From Streptomyces luomodiensis (lineage in GTDB: Bacteria; Actinomycetota; Actinomycetes; Streptomycetales; Streptomycetaceae): a stretch of 64,000 nt of DNA. Location: the NCBI RefSeq assembly GCF_031679605.1, contig NZ_CP117522.1, positions 9,858,001 through 9,922,000 on the forward strand, in the 5' to 3' direction. Below the pieces are notes generated by a model. The model did no database searches, was not told the DNA's origin, and saw nothing but the letters and a program-made list of their open reading frames with translations. Shown here one piece after another: positions 17,788 to 31,362 of this stretch; the first letter of the stretch is position 1; the number at the start of each line of letters is the position of its first letter. The position numbers and the translations under genes are program-made.

Positions 17788-18165
17788 TCAGCTGGTCAGC
17801 TCCGCAAGGCGCTCGAACAGCTGAGCGTCGCTGGTGCCGGCGCGGCTGGACTCCTCGCTGAGCACCCCGAACATAGGGTCCCACTGGGTGACCGTCATCT
17901 CTTGGACCTGGCCCTCTGCGAGGTAGGGGTCGGTGCCGACGATCTCGAGCAGTGCCTCCTCATCGGTTGCTGCGAACACCAGCAGTGCGGTGCGCTCCCA
18001 CGCCTGGCCCGGCTGTCCCGGCGTCGTGTTTGTGCGGGTGGTCGGTCCTGAAGCGCGCAGCTGACCCGACTCGACGCGTTCGACGAGCCACCGCAGGTGC
18101 GCATCGAGGTGGCGCGCCCAGCCGGTGGGATCACGGTGGACGTAGCTGACGACAAAGTGTGGCAT
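17788..18165 (-). CDS. YciI-like domain protein
   Basis: 125 residues from ATG 18165, with GGGGAAGGA upstream. The fold signature is MPHFVVSYVHRDPTGWARHL, then LDAHLRWL, RTALLVFAATDEEALLEIVG and TDPYLAEGQVQEMTVTQWDP, the ferredoxin-like dimer of YCII/muconolactone-isomerase-like proteins. The His/Asp pair expected in the pocket is present (H..HL and DPY). It is transcribed away from the triple GCATGCTT operator shared with the catabolic cluster, so it is likely a small enzyme of the same pathway. Confidence 0.83.
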   Translation of the reverse strand: MPHFVVSYVHRDPTGWARHLDAHLRWLVERVESGQLRASGPTTRTNTTPGQPGQAWERTALLVFAATDEEALLEIVGTDPYLAEGQVQEMTVTQWDPMFGVLSEESSRAGTSDAQLFERLAELTS

Positions 18166-18221
18166 GGCATGTCCTTCCCCGGGCTCTCGGCGATTCGCGC
18201 GGCCGCCCGGCAGATGCGTCA

Positions 18222-18268
18222 GCATGCTTGCAACCAGATTCGCATGCTTATATTGTAGCAGCATGCTT
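18222..18268. promoter_or_regulatory. Triple GCATGCTT operator with embedded promoter, copy 1
   Basis: GCATGCTT occurs at 18222, 18242 and 18261. On the plus strand a -35 TTGCAA (18228-18233), a 17-base spacer and a -10 TATTGT (18251-18256) are interleaved with it. The repeat spacing (20, 19) and promoter layout are identical to copy 2 at 27280-27326 before the flavin reductase. Likely bound by the MarR protein at 26716-27246. Confidence 0.75.
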
Positions 18269-18480
18269 ACGGATGGGCGAATTCCATGTTTCCTTATGCG
18301 GGTCCCGACCCGGCATGGTTTTCGGTCCGTCCCCAGCGGCATCGTGGCAATCCCTCGCGTGACGCACACAGCAGGCCTGTCGGCATGGCATCCCATCGGT
18401 TGCGCCGGCTCGATGCGGTCCTCCCCAGCAAGGCGTCCACCCCCTCCCGTTCATCCGATCGCCACCTGACGCGGCGGACC
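18263..18480 (+). pseudogene. Decayed 5' copy of the flavin-reductase gene
   Basis: The ATG at 18263 sits in the third operator repeat, as in the intact gene at 27321, and both begin ATGCTTACGGA. Further shared blocks are CCCCAGCGGCATC (18331) and the region giving VPSGIVAIP against FPSGITAIT, then PASKASTPSRSSD against LPGKTSSTFPVIA. The frame is broken and the homology fades by about 18480. The transporter gene starts at 18512, so this relic now serves as its leader. Confidence 0.7.
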
Positions 18481-18511
18481 CTCATCCCGAACCTCAATGG
18501 AGAGGTGTGTC

Positions 18512-19828
18512 ATGGCCCATCCAGCAGACATCCCGGCCGGAACGTTGAGACGTACGACGCTTGCGGCGGCGGTCGGTAACACGGTGGAGACGTACGACTA
18601 TGCGGTCTACGGCTTCCTCGCCACCGTGCTGGCGAAGGTCTTCTTCCCGGCCTCGAGCCCTACGACCGCGCTGCTGTCGTCGTTCGCGGTGTTCGGTTCG
18701 GCCTTCCTCGCCCGCCCGGCGGGTTCCCTGGTCTTCGGGCCGCTCGCCGACCGGCTGGGCCGCCGGCCTGCCCTGGTCGCGTCGCTACTGCTGATGGCAA
18801 CAGTCAGCACACTGATCGGCGTGCTGCCGTCGACGGCGACCATCGGAATCGCCGCGCCCGTCCTGCTCGTGCTGCTGCGGTTCGCCCAGGGGCTGGCGGC
18901 CGGCGGCGAGTTCACGACCGCGATCATCTACGTCGCCGAGTTCGCCCCGCCGCACCGGCGCGGGGCATTGTCGAGCCGCGTACAAGTGGGCAGTCTCGCT
19001 GGATTGCTCATCGGCGCTGTCGTCGTGCTCTTCCTCAACGCGGAGCTGACACGCGAGCAGATGCTCGCATGGGGCTGGCGGGTGCCGTTCCTGCTCGCGC
19101 TGCCTCTCGGCGCAATCGGCCTCTACCTGCGCAGCCGGTTCGGCGAGACCCCGGAGTTCCTCGCTGCGCGTAGCGAAACGTCCGCACAGGACGCCAATGT
19201 CAACGACCTGTGGGCCCGCGTTTTGCTGCTCGTGGGGGTGTCCGTACTGCACGTCATCGGCTTCTACATGACGTACACCTACGTCCAGAGTTACCTCATC
19301 CAGCTGGGTCTGTCCCCGTTCACCGCCACCTCGGTCATCGCCTTCGCGCTGCTGATCGGCCTGTTCCTGGTGATCGCGGGTGGCCGGGTGTCTGACCGGA
19401 AGGGCCGGCCCACAGCGCTGCTGGCGACCTCACTCACCGTGCTCATGATCACGTATCCGCTGTTCGCTGTGCTGTCCACCGCTCCTTCGCTGTGGCTCGT
19501 GATCCTCTGCACCGTGCTGCTGTCAGCCGGTCCGGCCTTCTACTCCGGCATCGCGCCGATCACTTACGTCCAACTCATCCCAGTCCGGATGCGCGGCAGG
19601 ACCGTTTCGGTGTCCTACAACATCGCCGTGGCCGCACTGGGCGGCTCCGCGGTCTTCATCTGCCAGGCCCTGATCGAGCTGACCGGTGACAAGCGTTCCC
19701 CTGCCTACTTGCTGCTGGCCGCGGCCGCCGCTAGCGCGATCGCCGCGTTTGCGCTCACCCGCCGGGCCACCCAGCACGCCCAGCCCTCTCCCTCGCCCGT
19801 GTCCCTGTCCGCAAAGGCCGGTTCATGA
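18512..19828 (+). CDS. MFS transporter, metabolite:H+ symporter (MHS) type
   Basis: 438 residues, twelve helices. Start ATG 18512 follows GGAGAGG. N-terminal AVGNTVETYDYAVYGFLATV is the MHS/ShiA-KgtP-ProP opening; ADRLGRRPALV is the helix 2-3 MFS signature and RFAQGLAAGGEFT the helix 4 signature. This subfamily imports organic acids (ketoglutarate, shikimate, dicarboxylates, aromatic acids) with protons. It is the first gene of a tight operon: the next ATG overlaps its stop. The cargo is therefore probably the carboxylate degraded by the downstream enzymes. Confidence 0.9.
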   Translation: MAHPADIPAGTLRRTTLAAAVGNTVETYDYAVYGFLATVLAKVFFPASSPTTALLSSFAVFGSAFLARPAGSLVFGPLADRLGRRPALVASLLLMATVSTLIGVLPSTATIGIAAPVLLVLLRFAQGLAAGGEFTTAIIYVAEFAPPHRRGALSSRVQVGSLAGLLIGAVVVLFLNAELTREQMLAWGWRVPFLLALPLGAIGLYLRSRFGETPEFLAARSETSAQDANVNDLWARVLLLVGVSVLHVIGFYMTYTYVQSYLIQLGLSPFTATSVIAFALLIGLFLVIAGGRVSDRKGRPTALLATSLTVLMITYPLFAVLSTAPSLWLVILCTVLLSAGPAFYSGIAPITYVQLIPVRMRGRTVSVSYNIAVAALGGSAVFICQALIELTGDKRSPAYLLLAAAAASAIAAFALTRRATQHAQPSPSPVSLSAKAGS

Positions 19829-20817
19829 CGACTTTGACCCTGCCCGACGCCCACGCACTTATCGTGGCCGCGATGACCGCGTGCGGTCATTCAGCCGAGG
19901 CCGCCGAGACCATTGCGGACCACTTGCTCGACTGCGAACTGCGCGGTCTGTCCTTCGGAGGGCTCGCCCGCGCGCTGTCCATAGTGGAGCGCATTCGCAC
20001 AGCCGACGCGCCGCCGCAGCCGATCCGGGTCGTCGCCGAGACGCCGGTGTCGGCCACCGTGGACGGCGGCGACCAGGTGGGCTACCTGGTCGGCATGCGC
20101 ACGCTGCAGCTGGCCATAGCGAAGGCCCGCGCACAGGGAATCGCCATCGTCGGCGCACGCAACACTTGGTATACGGGGATGTTCTCGTACTACCTGGAGA
20201 AAGCCGCGAAGGCCGGACTCGCCGGGGTGATCGCAGGCAGCGCGCCAGCGCTCGTGGCCCCGCACGGCGGCACCGAAGCCCGCTTCGGCACCAACCCGAT
20301 CGCCTTCGGTTTCCCAGCCACCCCGACTCCGATCATCTGGGACATCGGCACCTCCGCCGTGATGTACGGGGAGGTGAAGCTGAAGGCCCGACTCGGGGAG
20401 AAGCTGGCCCCCGGCCAGGCCTACGACGCCGCCGGGACTCCGACACTGGACCCGGCCGCCGCGCTCGAGGGCGCGTTCGGCGTGTGGGGCGGCCACAAGG
20501 GCTCCGGGCTCGCTCTGGTCGTCCAGCTGCTCGGCATGATGACCGGCGCGGCCGCCGACCCGCCCGGTGTTTCGGGCTGCGGCTTGTTCGTCGTGCTGTT
20601 CGACCCCGGCGCACTCACCGACGCGGGCGACTACCAACGGCGGGTCGCGGCGTTTGCCGAGATGGTCCGCGCAACCCGTCCCGTCGAGGGCGGCAGGCCG
20701 GTCCGGGTGCCGTTCGACCGCTCGGTGGCCTGCCGGGACGAGACGCTACGTCGCGGCACTGTCGATGTGCCCGAAGTGGTGGTCGCGGCCCTGCGGCAGG
20801 AGGCCGGACGTGCCTGA
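19825..20817 (+). CDS. Ldh2/MDH2-family NAD(P)-dependent oxidoreductase
   Basis: 330 residues; ATGA overlap with the transporter. Family marks: GARNTWYTGMFSYYLEKAAK (usual form G..NS.H.G...YY...A...G), HGGTEARFGTNPIAFGFP, and GGHKGSGLALVVQLL. These belong to the malate/L-lactate/sulfolactate dehydrogenase family (YlbC, ComC, AllD). The usual catalytic His of NS.H.G is Tyr here (NTWYTG), a notable change. It should oxidise a 2-hydroxy acid or reduce the oxo form. The next gene overlaps by 8 bp. Confidence 0.85.
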   Translation: MTTLTLPDAHALIVAAMTACGHSAEAAETIADHLLDCELRGLSFGGLARALSIVERIRTADAPPQPIRVVAETPVSATVDGGDQVGYLVGMRTLQLAIAKARAQGIAIVGARNTWYTGMFSYYLEKAAKAGLAGVIAGSAPALVAPHGGTEARFGTNPIAFGFPATPTPIIWDIGTSAVMYGEVKLKARLGEKLAPGQAYDAAGTPTLDPAAALEGAFGVWGGHKGSGLALVVQLLGMMTGAAADPPGVSGCGLFVVLFDPGALTDAGDYQRRVAAFAEMVRATRPVEGGRPVRVPFDRSVACRDETLRRGTVDVPEVVVAALRQEAGRA

Positions 20818-21310
20818 AAGCCCCGACGCCTTCGCGATCGAGCCGTCCCCGTCGGGCCGGCTCCTGTGCGGCGGATGCGCTCCACACGACTCCTGCCGTC
20901 TGGGCGTCGAGATCGCTGACGCGCAGGACGACAAGGTGCGGTTCGACGTCATCTGCCCACCGTTGTGGCACGGCGGGCCCGGCGTCGCGCACGGCGGCTG
21001 GAAGGCCGCGGTCTTCGACGATGTGTTCAGTGTTGTCGCACTGCGGGTCGAACCGCGGCTGGTGACCAAGTCGCTGTCGATCTCCTACCTCCGCCCGGTC
21101 CCGGTCGAGCGGCCCGTCGAGGTGCTGGCGCGGATCGACCGGCATGCCGGCAGGCAGTGGAAGGTCTCCGCCGACATGACGCTCGCCGGCATGGTGCCGG
21201 CCATCGCCCGGACCGAGTTGCGGACACGCCACCCGCATCACGTCGCCCGGCACGAGGCCTGGCCCGCCCGCCAACCGATGTCCCACAACGGATCTCGCGC
21301 AGAAAGCTGA
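20810..21310 (+). CDS. Hotdog-fold thioesterase
   Basis: 166 residues from GTG 20810, overlapping the dehydrogenase end by 8 bp. The PaaI/YbgC-like motif is GVAHGGWKAAVFDDVFS (HGG..A...D), followed by TKSLSISYLRPVPVERPVEV. It starts with a CGGCAPHDSCRLG segment as in several thioesterases of this kind. It would hydrolyse an acyl-CoA intermediate of the pathway, or salvage CoA from dead-end products. The gene is embedded in the operon; LLM oxidoreductase follows after 7 bp. Confidence 0.83.
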   Translation: MPESPDAFAIEPSPSGRLLCGGCAPHDSCRLGVEIADAQDDKVRFDVICPPLWHGGPGVAHGGWKAAVFDDVFSVVALRVEPRLVTKSLSISYLRPVPVERPVEVLARIDRHAGRQWKVSADMTLAGMVPAIARTELRTRHPHHVARHEAWPARQPMSHNGSRAES

Positions 21311-21317
21311 GGGCACC

Positions 21318-22346
21318 ATGGTCGAATTCTTCACCGGGCTGCAGCCCCTTCAGGCCGGCGAGACCGACCCCGACCGAATGATCTCCAGGATCCGGGAACT
21401 GGACCGCTCGAAGGCCATCGACCGGGTCCTTGTCGGGTACTCCTCCACCTGGCCGCACAACCACGCCACAGCGCCCTTCGCGCTGGCGCTGTCAGAGAAG
21501 TTCTCGCCGATTGTCGCGCACCGCCCCGGCGTCATGGCGCCGGTAGCAGCCGCGCGCTACTTCGCCACCCTCGATGTGCTGGCCCGCGGGAGGCTCGCCA
21601 TCAATGTGGTCGTCGGTGGCTCTGACAAGGATCTGCGCCGTGAATCGGATGACCTGCCCAAGGCCGGACGCTACCGGCGGGCGGTCGAGTACCTCGACAT
21701 CGTCCGCCGCGCCTGGACCGAAACCGCGCCCTTCGACCACCACGGCGAGTACTACACGGCCGAGGCGGTGAAGCTGCAGACCAAGCCGGTGCAGGGGCAG
21801 GTGCCGATCTTCATGGGTGGCGAGAGCGCCGACGCCGTGGACTTCGGCGCCCGGCACGCCGACCTGTACATGCTCTGGGGGGAACCGTTCGCCGGCACGA
21901 AGGAGCGCATCGACCGGGTCTCGGCGGCAGCCGAGCGTTACAACCGCCCGATGCGGTTCTCGCTGAGCCTGCGCCTCTTCATTGGTGACACCGACGACGA
22001 CGCGTGGGCCCAGGCCCGGGCTGTGGAGCGGCAGATCGCGGAGGCCGCTGGAACTCCGACCTTCTTGCGGTCGTCGTCGACCGACACCTCCGTGGGGCGG
22101 CAACGGGCGCTCGCGCTCACGGCGGAGGAGCTGCATGACGACTGCTTCTGGACCGGGCTGACAAAGCTCCTGGGCGGCTTCGCCAACTCCCAGGCGCTCG
22201 TCGGCACCGAGGAGCGCATCCTGGACACCCTCGGCAGGTACCGGGAGCTCGGAGTCGACGCGTTTCTCGTGACGACCGGCGCCGAAGCGGCCTGGGACCC
22301 GTCGTTGGAGGGCTTCCTGGCTCGTGCGAAGAAGGAGCTGGCATGA
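21318..22346 (+). CDS. LLM-class FMNH2-dependent monooxygenase (SsuD-like)
   Basis: 342 residues, a luciferase-like TIM barrel. Diagnostic stretches: SSTWPHNHATAPFALAL, PIVAHRPGVMAPVAAARYFA, LARGRLAINVVVGGSDKDLR (close to the alkanesulfonate monooxygenase GR...NVV.G) and QVPIFMGGESADAVDFGARH. Enzymes of this class use free FMNH2 and O2 to cleave C-S, C-N or C-C bonds. The reductant is probably supplied by the flavin reductase at 27321, which carries the same operator. The CoA-ligase ATG overlaps its stop. Confidence 0.88.
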   Translation: MVEFFTGLQPLQAGETDPDRMISRIRELDRSKAIDRVLVGYSSTWPHNHATAPFALALSEKFSPIVAHRPGVMAPVAAARYFATLDVLARGRLAINVVVGGSDKDLRRESDDLPKAGRYRRAVEYLDIVRRAWTETAPFDHHGEYYTAEAVKLQTKPVQGQVPIFMGGESADAVDFGARHADLYMLWGEPFAGTKERIDRVSAAAERYNRPMRFSLSLRLFIGDTDDDAWAQARAVERQIAEAAGTPTFLRSSSTDTSVGRQRALALTAEELHDDCFWTGLTKLLGGFANSQALVGTEERILDTLGRYRELGVDAFLVTTGAEAAWDPSLEGFLARAKKELA

Positions 22347-23986
22347 CGGTAACCACCGCCGCGGACAATGGAGTCCGAGGCCTTGAGGGCTTCTCCGATC
22401 TCGCCGACGGCACGGTCGGCGGTCTCATCGCTGCCCGCGCCGTAGAGCATCCGGACAGGCTCGCGCTTGTCTTCGAAGGCACCGAACTGACCTACGGCGC
22501 ACTCGACGCGGCCGTCACCGACGTGGCGCGCGGTCTTATGTCAGTAGCCGCCACACCGGGCAGCTCGGTTGGGATCTTCCTGCCCAACCAGCCCGAATAC
22601 CTGCTCGCCTGGCTCGGAGCGGCCCGCGCAGGCCTCGTCGAGGTCCCGATCAACACCGCCTACAAGGGCCCTTTCCTCGACCACGCGCTCCGCGGCACTG
22701 GCGTGCGCGTATTGGTCACCAATGCGGCCTTGCTGGAACTCGTCGCCGACCTGCCGGAAGTACCGCACACGCTCAAGACCGTCGTGCTGCTCGACGGCGA
22801 CCGGCACCGCCGCATCCCGCCCGGGGTAGCGGTACGGACGTGGAGCGACCTGCTCGCGGCCGGCGACCCGGCGACAGAGCTCCCCCGCGTCGCGCCGCAG
22901 GACCCGGTCGCGATCATGCTCACCTCCGGTACCACCGGGCGCAGCAAGGGCGTGGTGCAACCGCACGTGATGCAGGTGGTCGCCGGGCGCGAGTGCGCGG
23001 TGCAGATGGCCACGACCGCCGATGAGAGGCTCTACACCTGCCTACCGCTGTTCCACGGCGCCGCGCAGATCAACATATCCATGCACGCCTTCTACGCGGG
23101 CACGACCGTGGTCCTCGGCCGTCGGTTCAGCGCCAGCAAGTTCTGGGACGAGCTGCGCACCCACCGGGTTACCCAGTGCAATGCCCTCGGCTCCATCCTG
23201 CCGATGCTCCTCGCGCAGCCCCCGTCCGACCGCGACTGCGACCACCAGCTGACGAAGGTGTTCGCCGCGCCCGCCCCGCCCCAAGTGCTGTATCCGTTCG
23301 AGGAGCGCTTCGGCGTGCACGTCGTAGAGGGCTACGGGCTCACCGAGATCAAGAACGTTCTGTACAACCCGATCGGTGCCCGGAAGGTCGGCTCGCTGGG
23401 CCTGCCCACCGAATCGTCCGTTCTCGAGATCCACGACGAGTCCGGGAACCGTGCCGCGCCCGGCCAGGCCGGGGAGATCGTGTACCGGCCTCGCCTGCCG
23501 AACATCATGTTCTCCGGCTACCACGACGATCCCGAAGCGACGCTCGCGACCATGAAGGACCTGTGGTGGCACACGGGTGACCTGGGCTACACCGACGAAG
23601 ACGGCTACTTCTACTTCATCGACCGCAAGAAGGACGCCCTGCGCCGCCGCGGCGAAAACATCTCCTCACACGAGGTGGAGTCGGTGCTGCTTGCCTACCC
23701 CGGCGTCGTGGCCGCTGCTGCCATAGGCACGCCGTCGGAGCTGGGCGAGGACGAGGTTCTCGCCGTCGTGCAACTCGAACCCGGCTGCAAGCTGGAACGT
23801 GCGGAACTGTTCGCTCACTGCGACCGGTCGATGCCGCACTTCATGGTCCCCCGCTACTACCGCATCGTCGACCGGCTCCCGGTCACCCCGAACGGCAAGG
23901 TACGCAAGCACCAGTTGCGTGACCAGGGCCGCGCTGATGCCTGGGATGCGCTCGCCGCCGGGCTCAAACCCACCCGCCACACCTGA
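22343..23986 (+). CDS. AMP-dependent acyl-CoA synthetase
   Basis: 547 residues. Adenylation core motifs: IMLTSGTTGRSKGVVQPH (A3), VEGYGLTEIKNVLYN (A5), WWHTGDLGYTDEDGYFYFID (A7/A8), RRRGENISSHEVE (hinge) and TPNGKVRKHQLRD (A10 Lys). It resembles crotonobetaine/carnitine-CoA ligase and other carboxylate-CoA ligases. It activates a carboxylic acid with ATP and CoA. It overlaps the monooxygenase stop (ATGA) and is followed within 8 bp by the lyase-like gene, which would act on the CoA ester. Confidence 0.91.
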   Translation: MTVTTAADNGVRGLEGFSDLADGTVGGLIAARAVEHPDRLALVFEGTELTYGALDAAVTDVARGLMSVAATPGSSVGIFLPNQPEYLLAWLGAARAGLVEVPINTAYKGPFLDHALRGTGVRVLVTNAALLELVADLPEVPHTLKTVVLLDGDRHRRIPPGVAVRTWSDLLAAGDPATELPRVAPQDPVAIMLTSGTTGRSKGVVQPHVMQVVAGRECAVQMATTADERLYTCLPLFHGAAQINISMHAFYAGTTVVLGRRFSASKFWDELRTHRVTQCNALGSILPMLLAQPPSDRDCDHQLTKVFAAPAPPQVLYPFEERFGVHVVEGYGLTEIKNVLYNPIGARKVGSLGLPTESSVLEIHDESGNRAAPGQAGEIVYRPRLPNIMFSGYHDDPEATLATMKDLWWHTGDLGYTDEDGYFYFIDRKKDALRRRGENISSHEVESVLLAYPGVVAAAAIGTPSELGEDEVLAVVQLEPGCKLERAELFAHCDRSMPHFMVPRYYRIVDRLPVTPNGKVRKHQLRDQGRADAWDALAAGLKPTRHT

Positions 23987-23994
23987 GGAACCAC

Positions 23995-24930
23995 ATGTCC
24001 CTACCCGATGCGGTACGCATCCGCGAGATCGCGCCCCGGTTGACCTTCCAAGACCATGTCGTCCCGACCGAAGTAAAGATCGAACTCGTTGGGCGGCTCA
24101 TCGACGCCGGCGTCCGAGCGTTCGAGCTGTCCTCCTTCGTCCGGCCCGATCTCGTACCGGGCCTCGCCGACGCCGAGGAGGTGTTCGCCCGGGTGCCGCG
24201 GGTGCCCGGCCTCAGCCTCGGCTGCTGCGTCGGCAATACGCGCGGGCTCGCTCGCGCGGTCGGCGCGGGGGCCGACACGGCGTATTTCCTGCTCTCCGCT
24301 GACGAGGAATTCGCCCGCGCCAACACCGGACGGTCCACCACGGACTCGTTGCGTGAACTGGAGCGCATGGCCGCGTTCGCCGCGGACCGGAACATCGTGC
24401 TCGGCACCTACGTCATCTTCGCCTGGGGTGGGCCGACCGGCCCCGCCCGCAGCGGCGAGGACCTCGAACCGCTGGCCCGGCGGCTCCTCGACATCGGGGT
24501 GGACCATTGGATCCTCGCCGATTCCTCCGGCTACGCGGCCCCGCCCCAAATCCGCGAACTCCTCACCGCCGCGCTCCGGCACGTACCGCCTTCGAACCTG
24601 ACCGTGCAGATCCACGACGGCCGCGGCATGGGCCTTGCCGCCCTGCTCTCACTCCTCGAACTCGGTGTCCACGCTATCGACACCTCCCTTGCCGGCAGCG
24701 GTGGCCACCCGGCGATGCCCGGCACCCAAGGCGGCGGCCTGTGCACCGAGGACGCCGTGCAACTGCTCCACTTGTGCGGGGTGGAAACCGGTATCGACCT
24801 GCCCCGCCTCATCGATACAGCGAATTGGCTCACCAGCGAGGTCGGCGTTCCCGGTAAGGGATTCGTCCGACACACCGGTTGCGTACCGAGCACTGCCCAG
24901 CCCGGCGAACCACTCGCCTTCACCTGGTGA
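23995..24930 (+). CDS. HMG-CoA lyase-like DRE-TIM protein with altered active site
   Basis: 311 residues, a pyruvate-carboxyltransferase-type barrel. Alignment by eye to hydroxymethylglutaryl-CoA lyase: the GPRDGLQ motif is APRLTFQ (catalytic Asp to Leu), the metal-binding HxHD is QIHD (first His to Gln), and the Cys loop GGCPYA is GGHPAM (Cys to His). ELSSFV and the C-terminal STEDAV-like helix are kept. So the fold is retained but the known chemistry is unlikely; it may cleave a different acyl-CoA or do a non-lyase step. It is next to the CoA ligase. Confidence 0.8.
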   Translation: MSLPDAVRIREIAPRLTFQDHVVPTEVKIELVGRLIDAGVRAFELSSFVRPDLVPGLADAEEVFARVPRVPGLSLGCCVGNTRGLARAVGAGADTAYFLLSADEEFARANTGRSTTDSLRELERMAAFAADRNIVLGTYVIFAWGGPTGPARSGEDLEPLARRLLDIGVDHWILADSSGYAAPPQIRELLTAALRHVPPSNLTVQIHDGRGMGLAALLSLLELGVHAIDTSLAGSGGHPAMPGTQGGGLCTEDAVQLLHLCGVETGIDLPRLIDTANWLTSEVGVPGKGFVRHTGCVPSTAQPGEPLAFTW

Positions 24931-25092
24931 TAGCAACCAAGAGCTGCTGTCCCGTGCACCACAGCCGTCCCGACCAACACGGCTTGGGATCCGCGCCTCG
25001 GTGCCTTCCACCATCAGTCCAGTACGGCTTGCGCACCGCAAGCGAGATCAGCCGCTGAGTACCACTTCAGCGCTATGGGTCAAGGAGGACCA

Positions 25093-26589
25093 GTGACGAA
25101 AACCCGCAGGCCCACGATCGTCGTAGCCGGCGCAGGGCTGACCGGGCTCTGTGCGGCGGTCTCCGCCCGCGAGGCCGGCGCCCACGTTGTGCTGCTGGAA
25201 AAGGGCAGCCGTGAGGACGTCGGCGGGAACGCCGCCTTTTCCGGCGGGTTGTTTCTCTTCTGCTATGACGGGCCGGACGATCTGACGTCGATCACGGAAG
25301 AATTCGAGCCGGGCATGAAAGCCGACCGGATCGAGGCACCGCCCTACACCCGCCAGGCCTACGCAGCCGAGCTGATGGCGATGAGCGACGGCCAAGCCGA
25401 ACCCCGGCTGGTCAACGCGCTGGCTGAACGGTCGTTGGCCACGGTCCGCTGGCTGGCCGCGAAAGGCGTCCGCTTCACATTCAACCGCACCCTGGGGGCC
25501 GAGGTCCGCGACGGCGTCCTGCACATCCCACCCGGCCAGGTGCTGACGTGCACCGGCGAGGGAATGTCGCGCGGGTTCGAGGTGATCCGTCCCTTGCTTG
25601 CGCACGCCGAGCGGGTCGGCGTGGAGATCCGCTGGTCCACACCACTGGCGGATGTGCTGCGCAGCGACGGCCGGGTTACGGGCGTCGCGATCGGCGACGG
25701 CGGCCAGACCGTGCCCGCCGACGCCGTGGTGATCGCCACCGGCGGCTTCCAGGCCGACCGCGAACTACGCCGCGAGTATCTGGGGCCGCAGTGGGAGTCG
25801 GTGCGTCTGCGCGGCACCCGCCTGGCCACGGGCGACGGGATCCAGGCAGCACTTCGCGCCGGCGCGGACAAGGCCGGTACCTGGTCGAGCTGCCATTCGG
25901 CCGCAGTCGACCCGACCATGCCCTCACCGGGGTCCAGCGAGGCCTCACCACCGTTCCCCCTGCACGGCTTCTGGCTCGGCGTGCTCATCAACCGCGACGG
26001 CGAGCGGTTCGTCGACGAGGGCCCCGGCCCGTGGGTCAAGAACTACTCGAGGATGGGCAAGGCGATCATGCGGCAGCCCGGGTGCGAGGCCTTCGAGATC
26101 TTCGACCAGCGGACCGCGGCCCGGGTGGCCGATGAGTTCGCCGGCGCGGCGGTGCCCCTCGTCGCGCACACCGTCCCGGAGCTCGCCGAGCGGATCGGGG
26201 TGCCCGTCGACCGGCTGACGCACACGCTCGAGACGTTCAACAACGCGTGCCCACCCGGCAACGACATAAGTGAAGATTGCGGCACGGACGGCATAACGCC
26301 ACCTAAGTCCCGCTGGGCTACGCCCCTCGACCGGCCACCGTTCGTCGCCTATCCCGCCACCGCGGGGCTCACCTTCACGTTCGGCGGTATCCGGATCGAC
26401 CCGGACGGCCGGGTTCTTGGAACGGACGGGGCACCGGTGACCGGTCTGTACGCGGCCGGCGAGGCTATCGGTGGTCTGTTCTACGGCGACTATCCCGGTG
26501 GCGCCGCCCTCATGCGCGCCGCGGTCTTCGGCCGCGCGGCCGGACACACTGCCGCGACCGAAACCAGGCCGACTCCTCACCTGGCCTGA
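25093..26589 (+). CDS. FAD-dependent dehydrogenase (fumarate-reductase/KstD-like)
   Basis: 498 residues from GTG 25093, chosen because AAGGAGG sits 5 bases upstream; ATG 25075 is the alternative. N-terminal FAD site IVVAGAGLTGLCAAVSAREA (GxGxxG) with Glu at LLEKG, then a VGGNAAFSGG second motif. C-terminal FAD loop: GLYAAGEAIGGLFYGDYPGG. This architecture fits the flavoprotein subunit of fumarate reductase, 3-ketosteroid dehydrogenase and tricarballylate dehydrogenase. It would insert or reduce a C=C bond alpha to a carbonyl. It lies 160 bp after the lyase-like gene, same strand. Confidence 0.88.
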   Translation: MTKTRRPTIVVAGAGLTGLCAAVSAREAGAHVVLLEKGSREDVGGNAAFSGGLFLFCYDGPDDLTSITEEFEPGMKADRIEAPPYTRQAYAAELMAMSDGQAEPRLVNALAERSLATVRWLAAKGVRFTFNRTLGAEVRDGVLHIPPGQVLTCTGEGMSRGFEVIRPLLAHAERVGVEIRWSTPLADVLRSDGRVTGVAIGDGGQTVPADAVVIATGGFQADRELRREYLGPQWESVRLRGTRLATGDGIQAALRAGADKAGTWSSCHSAAVDPTMPSPGSSEASPPFPLHGFWLGVLINRDGERFVDEGPGPWVKNYSRMGKAIMRQPGCEAFEIFDQRTAARVADEFAGAAVPLVAHTVPELAERIGVPVDRLTHTLETFNNACPPGNDISEDCGTDGITPPKSRWATPLDRPPFVAYPATAGLTFTFGGIRIDPDGRVLGTDGAPVTGLYAAGEAIGGLFYGDYPGGAALMRAAVFGRAAGHTAATETRPTPHLA

Positions 26590-26726
26590 AGAGCGCGGAG
26601 CAGGCCGGAAAGGGACGCACTGCGGTCAAGCTCGTCGATCCGATCCGCGATCGCCTGGCTGCCTGCCCGTCCGTAGATCGGGTCGGCAGCCAGGTGGAAT
26701 CGCGCGATGACCTCTTCAGTGGTCAT
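26577..26726 (-). CDS. 49-residue ORF overlapping the marR stop
   Basis: ATG 26726 lies inside the end of the MarR gene (11-bp overlap), and the frame ends 13 bp inside the convergent FAD dehydrogenase. The sequence MTTEEVIARFHLAADPIYGR, then IADRIDELDRSASLSGLLRA is balanced and helical, unlike random shadow frames. No family is recognised. It could be a translationally coupled small partner of the regulator, or the remnant of a longer gene. Confidence 0.45.
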   Translation of the reverse strand: MTTEEVIARFHLAADPIYGRAGSQAIADRIDELDRSASLSGLLRALQAR

Positions 26727-27246
26727 CGACGCGGGGGCGGCCCATGTTCCGGAGTTCGTTCTCCACCACGAGCGCGGCCTGCCGCAGGCGGCCATCGGTG
26801 GCGACGATGTCGTCCCGTCCAAGCGTGGCGTTCAACGTGTCGCTGATCTTGAGGACCTCGCGGCTCATCTCGTCCAAGGCGGCCAACCCTGCCTCGGTGA
26901 CCTGGAGCGAGAGTGCCCGTTCGCTCTCTGGATGTGCGTCACGCGCAACGAAACCGCGGTTCTCCAGTTGGGTGACCATCCGCGTCATCGTCTGCGGCCG
27001 CACGTAGGAGCGGCGTGACAGCTGAGCGAGGGTCAGGCGGGGCTGACTGGCCAGGATCCGCAGGGCGCTGTAACTGGACAGTGTCATCTTCCACGGGCGC
27101 AGTCGCGTGTTCCCGATCCTGGTGACCGCCCGCTCGAACCGGAAGACGGCGTCGATCATCGAAGACGCTTCGTCCATACCGGCGGCAGCCTCGGTCGGCG
27201 AGCGACCGTCGTCGAACGGGTTGATGTAGGGGCGTCCGCTTGTCAC
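26716..27246 (-). CDS. MarR-family transcriptional regulator
   Basis: 176 residues from GTG 27246. Winged helix: TLAQLSRRSYVRPQTMTRMV (recognition helix VRPQTMTRMVTQLENRG), then wing VARDAHPESERALSLQVTEAG. The N-terminal helix has FERAVTRIGNTRLRPWKMTL. It is divergent from the flavin reductase, across the triple GCATGCTT operator, and the same operator precedes the transporter operon. It is the natural candidate repressor of both; MarR proteins usually release DNA on binding an aromatic or carboxylate ligand. Confidence 0.9.
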   Translation of the reverse strand: MTSGRPYINPFDDGRSPTEAAAGMDEASSMIDAVFRFERAVTRIGNTRLRPWKMTLSSYSALRILASQPRLTLAQLSRRSYVRPQTMTRMVTQLENRGFVARDAHPESERALSLQVTEAGLAALDEMSREVLKISDTLNATLGRDDIVATDGRLRQAALVVENELRNMGRPRVDDH

Positions 27247-27279
27247 CCATGCAGCATATGACTGCGGGACCGGAACTCA

Positions 27280-27326
27280 GCATGCTTGCCAGGTATTAAG
27301 CATGCTTGTATTGTGTAAGCATGCTT
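27280..27326. promoter_or_regulatory. Triple GCATGCTT operator with embedded promoter, copy 2
   Basis: GCATGCTT at 27280, 27300 and 27319 (the last two extended to AAGCATGCTT palindromes). -35 TTGCCA (27286-27291), 17-base spacer, -10 TATTGT (27309-27314). The expected transcription start coincides with the flavin-reductase ATG at 27321, so the mRNA is probably leaderless. Confidence 0.78.
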
Positions 27327-27836
27327 ACGGACGTCGGCGATTCTTCACAACTGTCAGGCCCCGACGCTGCACGTTTCCGGGCCGTCCTCGGGCACTTCCC
27401 CAGCGGCATCACCGCTATCACTTCGCGCGATGCGCAAGGCAGGCCGGTGGGCATGACCGTCGCGTCATTCACCTCGGTATCACTCACCCCTCCACTCGTG
27501 GCGTTTCTGCCCGGCAAGACGTCGTCGACGTTCCCGGTCATCGCCGAGCGCGGCACCTTCTGCGTGAATGTCCTCGCTGCCGACCAAGAGCGGATCTGCC
27601 GTGCACTGTCGGTGTCGGGAGGCGACAAGTTCGCCGAGGTGGCCTGGCTGCCCGGGCCGCATGGCGACCCGGTCATCGACGGCGTGGTCGCCTGGATCGG
27701 CTGCACGGTCGAAGCCGTGCACGACGCCGGTGACCACTACATTGTCATCGGGCGTGTCGACGACCTCGATGCCGACAGCACGGCGTCGCCCCTGCTGTTC
27801 TTCAAAAGCCGCTACAACCACCTCACATCAGCCTGA
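27321..27836 (+). CDS. Flavin reductase (two-component monooxygenase partner)
   Basis: 171 residues. Flavin_reduct domain: GHFPSGITAITSRDAQGRPV, then GMTVASFTSVSLTPPLVAF, KTSSTFPVIAERGTFCVNVL, and a C-terminal GDHYIVIGRVDDL. It reduces FMN with NAD(P)H and hands FMNH2 to a monooxygenase, here most likely the SsuD-like enzyme at 21318. The ATG at 27321 is the first base expected to be transcribed and there is no ribosome site, so leaderless translation is likely. It is followed by the isomerase-like gene. Confidence 0.9.
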   Translation: MLTDVGDSSQLSGPDAARFRAVLGHFPSGITAITSRDAQGRPVGMTVASFTSVSLTPPLVAFLPGKTSSTFPVIAERGTFCVNVLAADQERICRALSVSGGDKFAEVAWLPGPHGDPVIDGVVAWIGCTVEAVHDAGDHYIVIGRVDDLDADSTASPLLFFKSRYNHLTSA

Positions 27837-28800: not shown

Positions 28801-29210
28801 ATGAGGAAGCGTCAGTCGCGGCCGTGGATGGTGTCGGACGAACTCTGGGCTCTGATCGAGTCGTCGTTACTGACCGAACCGGGACCGAAACTGGTGGCGG
28901 GCAGGCCGCGGGTGCCGTGATCGACTCCTCCCACGTGCGGGCCGCTCGGCGCGGCGGCAAAAGCGGGCCCAGCCCGGTCGACCATGCACCGCCGGGCAGC
29001 AAGCACCACGTCATCACCGACGCTCAGGGCGTCCCGCTCGCGGTGTCGTTGACCGGCGGAAACCGCAACGACGTGACACAGTTGCTGCCGCTGCTGGAGA
29101 AGATCCCGGCCGTGGCTGGCGTCGTCGGCCGCCCCAGACGTCGGCCAGAGATACTCCTCGCCGACCGCGGCTACGACCACGACAAGTACCGCCGCCTGGT
29201 GCGGGTGTGA
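28801..29210 (+). pseudogene. IS5-family (IS427-like) transposase with internal deletion
   Basis: ATG 28801 begins MRKRQSRPWMVSDELWALIE. After about 40 codons the sequence jumps to VIDSSHVRAARRGGKSGPSP (first DDE Asp) and KHHVITDAQGVPLAVSLTGG, then ILLADRGYDHDKYRRLVR (second Asp). The middle and the end with the final Glu are missing. A right-hand remnant adjoins the recombinase pseudogene. Confidence 0.8.
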
Positions 29211-29261
29211 GTAGTTGCGGTACAGAAAGTGCCGCTGAGACTGATCTTGCTCCGTGCTGGG

Positions 29262-29931
29262 CTATTTCGCGGGGGCTTCGAGACGCCGCGGTAGGGCGCC
29301 GGCGCGCAGTTCCCGTAGATCGGGGATGTGGTGGTAGACGGTGCCCCGGGGAGACGCCGAGGAGCTTGGCTATCGAGGTGATGGAGCGGCCGGGGTCGGG
29401 CAGGAGGTCGCGGGCGGCGCGGATGACTTCCTCGGTGGCGAGGGTGGGGTGTCCGCCGATGCGGCCGCGGGCGCGGGCGGCGGCCAGGCCCTCGTTGGTG
29501 TCGATGACGATGAGTTCGCGGATGAACTCCGCAAGGGTGGCGAAGACGTGGAAGACGAGCCGGCCGCCGGGGGTGGTGGTGTCCAGGTTCTCGTGGAGCG
29601 AGGTGAAGCCGATCCCGCGCTCGCGCAGCTCGGCGACCATGTTGATGAGGTCCTGGAGGCTGCGGCCGTAGCGGTCGAGTGAGGGGACGGCGAGGGTGTC
29701 GCCGGGGTCGAGGAAGGCGTGGCATGCCTTCAGCTCGGGGCGCAGGGCGTTCTTGCCGGACTTCTGGTCCGCGAAGATCTTCCGGCACTCGGCGGCGGTG
29801 AGCGCGTCGATCTGCCGTTCGAGCTTCTGTCCGCCGGTGGAGACCCGGGCGTACCCGATCTTGATTTCGGTGCGGACGAGCGGTTCGGCGCCGAGCAGGT
29901 CCGGCCCGTCGGCCGGTTCGAGGGCGGCCAT
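29262..29931 (-). pseudogene. Serine recombinase (Tn3-type resolvase), C-terminal frameshift
   Basis: From about 29931 the frame reads IKIGYARVSTGGQKLERQID (catalytic Ser), VPSLDRYGRSLQDLINMVAE and GGRLVFHVFATLAEFIREL, the resolvase catalytic core with its E helix. The helix-turn-helix ITSIAKLLGVSPG continues only after a one-base shift at about 29344, as TVYHHIPDLRELRAGALPRR, ending at TAG 29262-29264. A CCCCGGGG run at the shift makes slippage or a base-call error possible. It lies just inside a Tn3-type terminal repeat. Confidence 0.8.
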
Positions 29932-29943
29932 GGCCCCGGGTCA

Positions 29944-29981
29944 TGTCAGAAAACGGTGGTCTGGGGTTGTCGAATGACCCC
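29944..29981 (-). repeat. Candidate 38-bp Tn3-type terminal inverted repeat
   Basis: Read on the minus strand it begins GGGGTCATTCGACAACCCCA and ends TTCTGACA, exactly 38 bp, the usual length and GGGG start of Tn3 repeats. The transposase pseudogene breaks off exactly at its outer end. The partner repeat was not found in the window. Confidence 0.55.
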
Positions 29982-31133
29982 GGTTTACGCGGGACGGCCT
30001 CCTCCACCGCCGCCCACAGCGCGGCGACATCCGGGTCCGCGTCGTGCTCGGCGACCAGGTCCAGTTCCTCGGTGAGGATCTTCGACGCCTTCGCCAGGAT
30101 GCGCGCCGCCTTCTCCAGCTGCGGCAGCATCGCCAACCGCTCCCGCTCCGAGGCCCGCCGCGCGGGGCTGATCAGCCGGTTCGCCATCAGCATCGCGAAC
30201 AGGTCCAGCGCGTCATCGACCGCCTGCGCCTCCAGCTCCGCCACACCGCCGTCAGCAGCGCCGTGCGCCGCGGCTCCGGCGTCCGCTCGATCGTCGGTGC
30301 CTTGCCCAGCTGCCCGTACCGGGCCAGCGTGGACAGCCGGTCACCGGCACCCGCGACAGGTTCACCCGCCCGAGCGCGAATGCGGAGATCTCCTCCACCC
30401 GCTCCATCGCCCGCACCATCGCGGTGTCCGTCGACTTCACCGGCGGCGTGCGCAACCGCTCCAGCGCCGAGACCCGCTTGCCCTCCGGCACCGCCAGCAG
30501 CTCCGCCAGCGCCGGCGCGAGCGCGGGATCGGCCCGGTGCGCGGCGCGGGTCACCGCCTCGTACAGGCGCCGCTCGGCCGCCGTACGGGCCTCCGACACC
30601 TGCCGGGCCAGCACCGACACCCCCGGCAGCAGCACCCGGTTCTTCCGCAGCCACGTCACCGCGTGGTTGAACAGCGGCACCGGCCCCTCGGCGTGCGTCC
30701 ACGCCCGCCCGTACAGGAACCCGCGGAACTCCCGCCCCCATCGCCGGTCGGTGAAGTCGCGGTACCTGAACCGCTCCTGGATCTCCTCCGCATGCTCGTA
30801 CGGCGTCCGGCGCCGCTCGGGGCACCGCTTCACGCACGAGGCGTCGGTGATGCCGAGCTGCCCGGCCAGGTACTCCACGACCTCCCACGGCACCGCGAGC
30901 GGGTCCTCCCCGAGGAACCGGCCGATGTAGCGGACGGTGCAGATCTGCACGGCCATGCCCAGCCGGTGCGCGTCCGTACGCCGCAGCGCGATCAGATCGC
31001 GGTCGTCGTCATCGAGGAAGAAGAACCGCTCCAGCTCCGGGCGCGTGGGCACCTTGATGAACGTCCCGTACGCCTCGGCCTGCTCGTCAGTCAGAAACTC
31101 CACCGGCACGAGGCGGACCGTAGCCAGCGTCAT
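29982..31133 (-). pseudogene. Tn3-family transposase, truncated and frameshifted
   Basis: ATG 31133 starts LVPVEFLTDEQAEAYGTFIK, then RPELERFFFLDDDDRDLIAL, VQICTVRYIGRFLGEDPLAV and WLRKNRVLLPGVSVLARQVS, the DUF4158 N-terminal domain. At about 30350 the frame shifts (DRLSTLARYGQLGKAPTIER continues elsewhere), and again at about 30245 (ALDLFAMLMANRLISPARRA). It stops at VEEAVPR, right at the 38-bp repeat. About half the protein, including all DDE residues, is missing. Confidence 0.8.
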
Positions 31134-31199
31134 CACCCGCCCGACGATCTTTCCGGGAACCCCAGCGAGGGCCCCGGCAGGTGAACGCGGCAGCGGCGC

Positions 31200-31362
31200 G
31201 GCCTGGGCATCTTCCGCTACGTGGTCGAGGGCACGATTGCCTGGCTGCACGGCTTCCGCCGACTGCGGATCCGCTGGGAACGATGCGACGACATGTCACG
31301 GAGCCTTCCTCGGTCTCGCCACCCGCCTGATCACCCACCGCCACGTCCAACGCCTGCGGTAA
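31200..31362 (+). pseudogene. C-terminal fragment of an IS5-family transposase
   Basis: Reads VVEGTIAWLHGFRRLRIRWE, then after a frameshift AFLGLATRLITHRHVQRLR and a stop. This is the last helix with the catalytic Glu region (VVERT..WLH.FRRLR.RWERR) of IS5 elements. No upstream part is present. Confidence 0.75.

Follow-up and report, generated by a model that had tools for sequence, protein, structure and literature searches.

A Streptomyces luomodiensis operon that appears to have kept its promoter and operator after its first gene decayed

Why does the same regulated promoter stand twice, in the same direction and 9.06 kb apart, in one gene cluster? The cluster lies in the window analyzed here, a 64,000-nucleotide stretch (positions 9,858,001-9,922,000) near the end of the single-contig Streptomyces luomodiensis genome (10,044,493 bases). 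Copy 1 of the element, the head operator at 18222, precedes an operon for a major facilitator superfamily (MFS) transporter, an Ldh2 dehydrogenase, a thioesterase, a luciferase-like monooxygenase (LLM), a CoA ligase, an HMG-CoA-lyase-like protein (HMGL), and TcuA. Copy 2, the tail operator at 27280, sits between a MarR-family regulator gene on the minus strand and an intact flavin reductase (FR) gene on the plus strand. A preliminary description, made from the sequence of the window alone, held that copy 1 is the promoter and operator of the transporter operon, which is borne out, and that it was captured from the FR gene. Our comparison with relatives gives a different origin. Copy 1 is very probably the operon's own old promoter and operator, still in place. 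Its first gene, an FR, would have decayed there after a MarR-operator-FR module had reached the 3' end, the promoter being kept for the remaining genes.

Both copies hold three GCATGCTT boxes with identical steps of 20 and 19 bases. Each also holds a promoter of the form TTGC(A/C)A-17-TATTGT in the same phase, with TTGCAA in copy 1 and TTGCCA in copy 2, and the two agree in all of the first 11 bases counted from the ATG. The triple-box pattern (spacers 10-13) occurs at these two sites only in the entire genome, and the reversed pattern, searched as a control, occurred 0 times on either strand. Relaxing the search to two boxes (spacer 8-34) added one site, at 8.9748 Mb, upstream of another FR gene that is 82% identical to the FR of the window. 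Boxes, steps, and promoters are thus as first described. The shared spacing had been taken as a sign of duplication. Of 31 related operators, however, 27 have box 1 and box 3 at a distance of 39 or 40 (in the remaining four a degenerate box 1 lies at 38), and the 20/19 spacing is therefore an old property of the operator, not a mark of recent duplication.

Copy 1 runs into the remains of an FR gene, again as first proposed. ATGCTTACGGA is present at 18263 and CCCCAGCGGCATC at about 18332, and the old reading frame still encodes PSGI.AI, like FR. Beyond the operator, 18272-18511 aligns to 27330-27620 with scores of 52, 113, and 42 in three scoring schemes. The highest values among 1000 dinucleotide shuffles are 31, 82, and 28, so that 0/1000 attain the real score under any scheme. 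The relic was also found in two related genomes, the same-species strain S465 and CB01635. The open frame from the old start runs for 68 codons in S. luomodiensis and in S465 and for 5 in CB01635, and we rejected a conserved leader peptide on the last of these counts.

The order of genes in relatives indicates what once stood behind copy 1. A scan with the transporter, taking one genome per species, gave 60 loci. The nearest named record is S465 (98% identical). One Sciscionella and four Amycolatopsis loci (75-78%) have the order operator, intact FR, transporter, other genes. Searches with the LLM protein matched 5/80 genomes in the genus of A. saalfeldensis, 18/390 in its family, 10/392 in Streptomyces, and 1/394 in a class sample, this one being S. 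luomodiensis itself. These counts are lower bounds, as the best few candidates per genome were scored (5 of up to about 50 in the search that gave 10/392), large groups were sampled, and the E-value was strict. Eleven of the 18 family matches are Pseudonocardiaceae clusters with an LLM 87-90% identical (L039, L040, L041, L042, L095, L141, L142, L178, L179, L180, and L181). An intact FR directly follows the operator in all 11, the transporter directly follows FR in nine, and a closely related MarR gene stands divergent ahead of the operator in ten. The MarR of A. acidicola is 52-53% identical and located elsewhere. Several of the 11 yielded no thioesterase or no TcuA; for transporter and FR, absence means no tblastn match in a fetched stretch of about 20 kb. 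S. luomodiensis, S465, and G548 also carry a second cluster (c2) without the transporter, ordered MarR <- operator -> FR - Ldh2 and onward, and in all three the operator is followed first by FR. As a separate observation, the c2 stretch of S. luomodiensis (L107, 8.965-8.985 Mb), which has the MarR-FR head and lacks the transporter, matches TcuA over residues 451-486 only, and its FR-Ldh2 spacer seems, by eye, to retain the start of the transporter.

Nine Streptomyces clusters are of the same type as that of the window (L160 and L038 denote one locus, and G524 and S465 one genome; neither pair was counted twice). Their operon genes form one clade in a quick concatenated tree, made without Brevibacterium and G399 (SH-like approximate likelihood ratio test, SH-aLRT, 100). 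The head operator is kept in 9/9, with boxes 1 and 3 exact in every case and box 2 in four, and FR is gone behind it in all nine. In S. luomodiensis, S465, and CB01635, which form one clade in the same tree (97), the order is relic then MFS. The other six (G055, G548, G329, G096, G423, and G536), a clade with weak support (74), lack both FR and MFS, and the box-3 ATG lies 43-50 bases before Ldh2. MarR-operator-FR stands at the 3' end in 8/9. The remaining cluster, in G548, retains part of that FR and has lost MarR, the FR start, and the tail operator, leaving eight tail operators for comparison.

The relic of CB01635 preserves the other end of the gene. It matches the last 60 bases of FR genes, through the stop, at a level reached by 0/1000 shuffles against head and tail FR and 1/1000 against c2 FR; the entire relic scores above all of 200 shuffles. 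The stop lies 42 bases upstream of the transporter, S. luomodiensis has a matching TGA at equal distance, and 41/46 bases agree between the two from stop to transporter. Remains of both FR ends thus survive, the 5' part in S. luomodiensis and the 3' end to the stop in CB01635. Because the CB01635 relic reaches the stop, a whole FR gene once stood at the head, rather than a captured 5' end. Taken with the intact FR that comes first behind the operator in relatives, this argues for decay of the operon's own leading gene where it stood, without capture of a promoter.

These observations suggest the following history. The ancestral order would have been MarR <- operator -> FR - MFS - Ldh2 - thioesterase - LLM monooxygenase - CoA ligase - HMGL - TcuA. 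In the Streptomyces lineage the MarR-operator-FR module would have been placed at the 3' end as well, most likely by duplication, a route and timing that we infer, and the head MarR lost. The redundant head FR may then have decayed in place (S. luomodiensis, S465, CB01635) or been deleted together with the transporter (six strains). The operator-promoter would have been kept because the remaining genes are still transcribed from it.

Head and tail operators form two lineages by sequence. GCT[TC]ATA follows box 2 in 9/9 Streptomyces heads, 3/3 c2 operators, 8/11 Pseudonocardiaceae heads, and 0/8 tails. Conversely, AAGCATGCTT is box 2 in 8/8 tails and 0/23 other operators. Both marks were picked after the sequences had been seen. 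Since heads carry GCT[TC]ATA and tails do not, copy 1 is unlikely to be a recent copy of copy 2. Overall operator identity is indecisive by itself because the values overlap: over 34 ungapped bases, the S. luomodiensis head agrees with its own tail at 26, with c2 operators at 26-28, and with seven Pseudonocardiaceae heads at 17-29. The groups of the 31 operators each keep different boxes. Tails have box 2 exact in 8/8, box 3 in 7/8, and box 1 in 5/8; c2 operators have boxes 2 and 3 exact in 3/3 and box 1 in none; Pseudonocardiaceae operators have boxes 1 and 3 exact in 10/11 each and box 2 in 0/11. The gene trees were built without L043 (Rhodococcus), L178-L181, and the more distant lineage described below. 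In them tail FR forms one clade (91/96), tail MarR forms one clade (97/99), and the relic is placed outside the tail clade (97/99). A recent copying of 27280-27326 to 18222 was rejected on the box-2 marks, the operator comparison, and the relic identities given below; the tree agrees without excluding it.

Several results count against decay in place, or against parts of it. No Streptomyces cluster among the nine has an intact head FR together with a tail FR. In the CB01635 relic, the central 111 bases are matched by 6/200 shuffles. The 3' end of the S. luomodiensis relic is reached by 156, 79, and 58 of 1000 shuffles in global tests, by 1, 0, and 1 of 1000 in local tests, and by 74/1000 in a test that included the spacer. 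Between S. luomodiensis and CB01635, identity is 40/50 in the operator, 114/151 in the alignable relic body, and 1182/1316 in MFS, and the operator is not clearly better conserved than its surroundings. In approximately unbiased (AU) tests no placement of the relic is rejected (p 0.147 with tails, 0.352 with heads, 0.323 with c2, 0.078 with its own tails only). Finally, in a more distant lineage (LLM 79-80%; six of seven clusters fetched, G755 left out), 6/6 carry operator-like boxes a short way upstream of the transporter, and no FR was found in the interval; Streptomyces G399 is likewise. FR - MFS may thus not be the deepest order, and the operator - MFS link may be older.

Decay of the head FR in place does not depend on how the tail module arose. 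The tail MarR-operator-FR might have been acquired from another related cluster and not duplicated within the operon, which we regard as possible, if less likely than duplication. In its favor, three of the nine genomes hold c2 clusters, each having a MarR-FR of its own, and box 2 distinguishes the tail operators from every head. On the other hand, tail FR and tail MarR form clades of their own apart from c2, and no donor was found; the nearest sister of either is left undecided by the trees.

Capture, as first proposed, has the operator and FR start copied from 27280-27836 and set before the transporter operon so as to place that operon under MarR, with the coding part decaying afterward. This is improbable. 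The relic is truly homologous to FR, the two copies agree in direction and in their first coding bases, and the AU results for tails and the FR-less distant lineage would both suit it. Against it, FR comes first in all 11 Pseudonocardiaceae and all three c2 clusters, and the sister relic of CB01635, which matches FR through its 3' end and stop, speaks for a whole gene and against a captured end. The head operator shares its box-2 mark with other heads and differs there from the tail. Nor does copy 1 prove closest to copy 2 among known relatives: the relic is identical to its own tail FR at 124/201 positions, to the Sciscionella head FR at 125/201, and to the A. saalfeldensis head FR at 123/183. 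That the likeness beyond the operator reflects chance or shared high-GC composition can be dismissed almost entirely, since identity of about 62% over the alignable relic is offset by the shuffles under all three schemes and by the intact FR in that place in relatives.

The six heads without FR and MFS show a further feature. In five of them (L156, L157, L159, L162, and L163) the opening codons of FR run in frame into the closing codons of MFS, forming a 17-codon open frame whose TGA overlaps the Ldh2 ATG (ATGA); the sixth, G096, has lost it. In G055 the left half of the frame aligns with the start of the S. luomodiensis relic and the right half with the end of its MFS gene. One speculative reading is that the dying first gene was turned into a translation starter, with selection keeping the old promoter, the start codon, and the box on it so that translation of the operon starts by coupling. 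The 68-codon relic frame of S. luomodiensis might then, no less tentatively, represent an earlier stage, and the 17-codon frame would probably be leaderless. The 17-codon frame could also be no more than the scar of one shared deletion.

The operators also suggest how the promoters work. A TAnnnT hexamer lies at -12 to -7 from the box-3 ATG, ending six bases before it, in 31/31 operators. In S. lividans, the -10 element is TAnnnT at a mean of 6.3 bases before the transcription start, and 17% of transcripts are leaderless (PMC8079986). From this distance both promoters of the window should start at the ATG, and head and tail transcripts should be leaderless. The MarR protein is the presumed repressor of both promoters, released by an inducer, because its gene adjoins the operator and multi-box sites in its own genome are limited to three places, all before an FR gene or the relic. 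MarR bound to the boxes would cover the -35 element and the transcription start and crowd the -10 element, giving repression until the inducer arrives. In relatives, two-box sites occur elsewhere too, for example between PrpD and its neighbor, and one lies on another A. acidicola contig.

Formation of a pseudogene inside an operon with the promoter kept is known as operon remodelling, and here likewise the first gene is lost by decay or deletion while later genes keep the old promoter. This is a tidy case of such remodelling, not a new kind of system. What sets it apart is that a single genus shows both relic and clean deletion while relatives have the gene intact, and that the gene lost from the head persists at the opposite end of the cluster behind a second operator. 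MarR regulators with divergent catabolic genes include HcaR, PcaV, and HpaR. They have the MarR domain and a regulator divergent from an operon gene in common with this locus; HcaR and PcaV are among the 40 PDB sequences matched by this MarR, and the HpaR model falls below its cut-off. Here, by comparison, three 8- to 10-base boxes lie about two helical turns apart, one of them on the start codon. As in two-component flavin-dependent monooxygenases, an LLM monooxygenase and an FR share one cluster. Flavin reductases deliver reduced flavin to LLM monooxygenases, and this FR would do the same; it resembles HsaB/FerA/HpaC-type reductases, all below NCBIfam cut-offs, and, unlike in those systems, it has left the operon head. 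One conceivable pathway, guessed from family names, runs from tricarballylate through aconitate and itaconate. Literature searches with the gene set and the operator word gave no study of this MarR regulon or operator among the matches listed.

Seen together, the relic, the clean deletion, and the intact relatives illustrate how the leading gene of an operon can be lost and its promoter retained, here after the gene and its presumed regulator had gained a second place. The locus also advises caution: a shared operator and gene fragment need not mean promoter capture, and the order in relatives decides. An operator with one box on the start codon offers a clean target for testing a MarR regulon. 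The features are collected in Table 1.

Table 1. Features of the cluster and its surroundings, in window coordinates
Feature	Coordinates	Strand	Remarks
Head operator (copy 1)	18222-18268	+	Boxes 18222-18229, 18242-18249, 18261-18268; -35 TTGCAA 18228-18233; -10 TATTGT 18251-18256; predicted transcription start, A of ATG 18263
FR relic	18263-18469	+	68-codon open frame from old start codon
MFS transporter, metabolite:H+ symporter-like	18512-19828	+	PF07690, PF00083; TIGR00883 and TcuC model below cut-offs, TcuC among the better matches
Malate/L-lactate dehydrogenase family (Ldh_2)	19825-20817	+	PF02615
Hotdog thioesterase (4HBT)	20852-21310	+	PF03061 on longer open frame 20567-21310; start 20852 is our placement
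LLM flavin-dependent monooxygenase, SsuD/SfnG-like	21318-22346	+	PF00296; NCBIfam matches below cut-off
Acyl-CoA ligase	22343-23986	+	PF00501, PF13193
HMGL	23995-24930	+	PF00682
FAD-dependent tricarballylate dehydrogenase, TcuA-like	25075-26589	+	NF006130, 438.9 bits (cut-off 369)
MmgE/PrpD-family C-terminal remnant	26580-26732	-	Residues 413-463 of 463 of the S465 gene, 100% identical; Pfam match is that of the intact gene
MarR-family regulator, presumed repressor of both promoters	26716-27246	-	PF01047 (MarR winged-helix domain), 55.1 bits (cut-off 24.6)
Tail operator (copy 2)	27280-27326	+	Boxes 27280-27287, 27300-27307, 27319-27326; -35 TTGCCA 27286-27291; -10 TATTGT 27309-27314
Intact FR	27321-27836	+	171 aa if start is the ATG in box 3; open frame 27306-27836 matches PF01613, 150.4 bits (cut-off 27), residues 28-173 of 176
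YciI-family gene, divergent from head operator	17788-18165	-	PF03795

A search for near-identical plasmids with 18200-26600 gave no match. Beside the cluster, 29014-31250 on the minus strand holds open frames that look similar to a serine resolvase and a Tn3-type transposase. In S465 an intact MmgE/PrpD gene lies between TcuA and MarR (L037 18066-19457), with boxes near its start at L037 19493 and 19512. A deletion seems to have taken the rest of this gene and its operator from S. luomodiensis, leaving 51 of 463 residues. To the left of the head operator, in the place that MarR occupies in Pseudonocardiaceae, stand YciI genes (window 17788-18165 and L038 7412-8434), joined in CB01635 by a NIPSNAP gene. 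An inversion between the operators was considered for the NIPSNAP/YciI position in CB01635; the orientation of MarR does not fit it.

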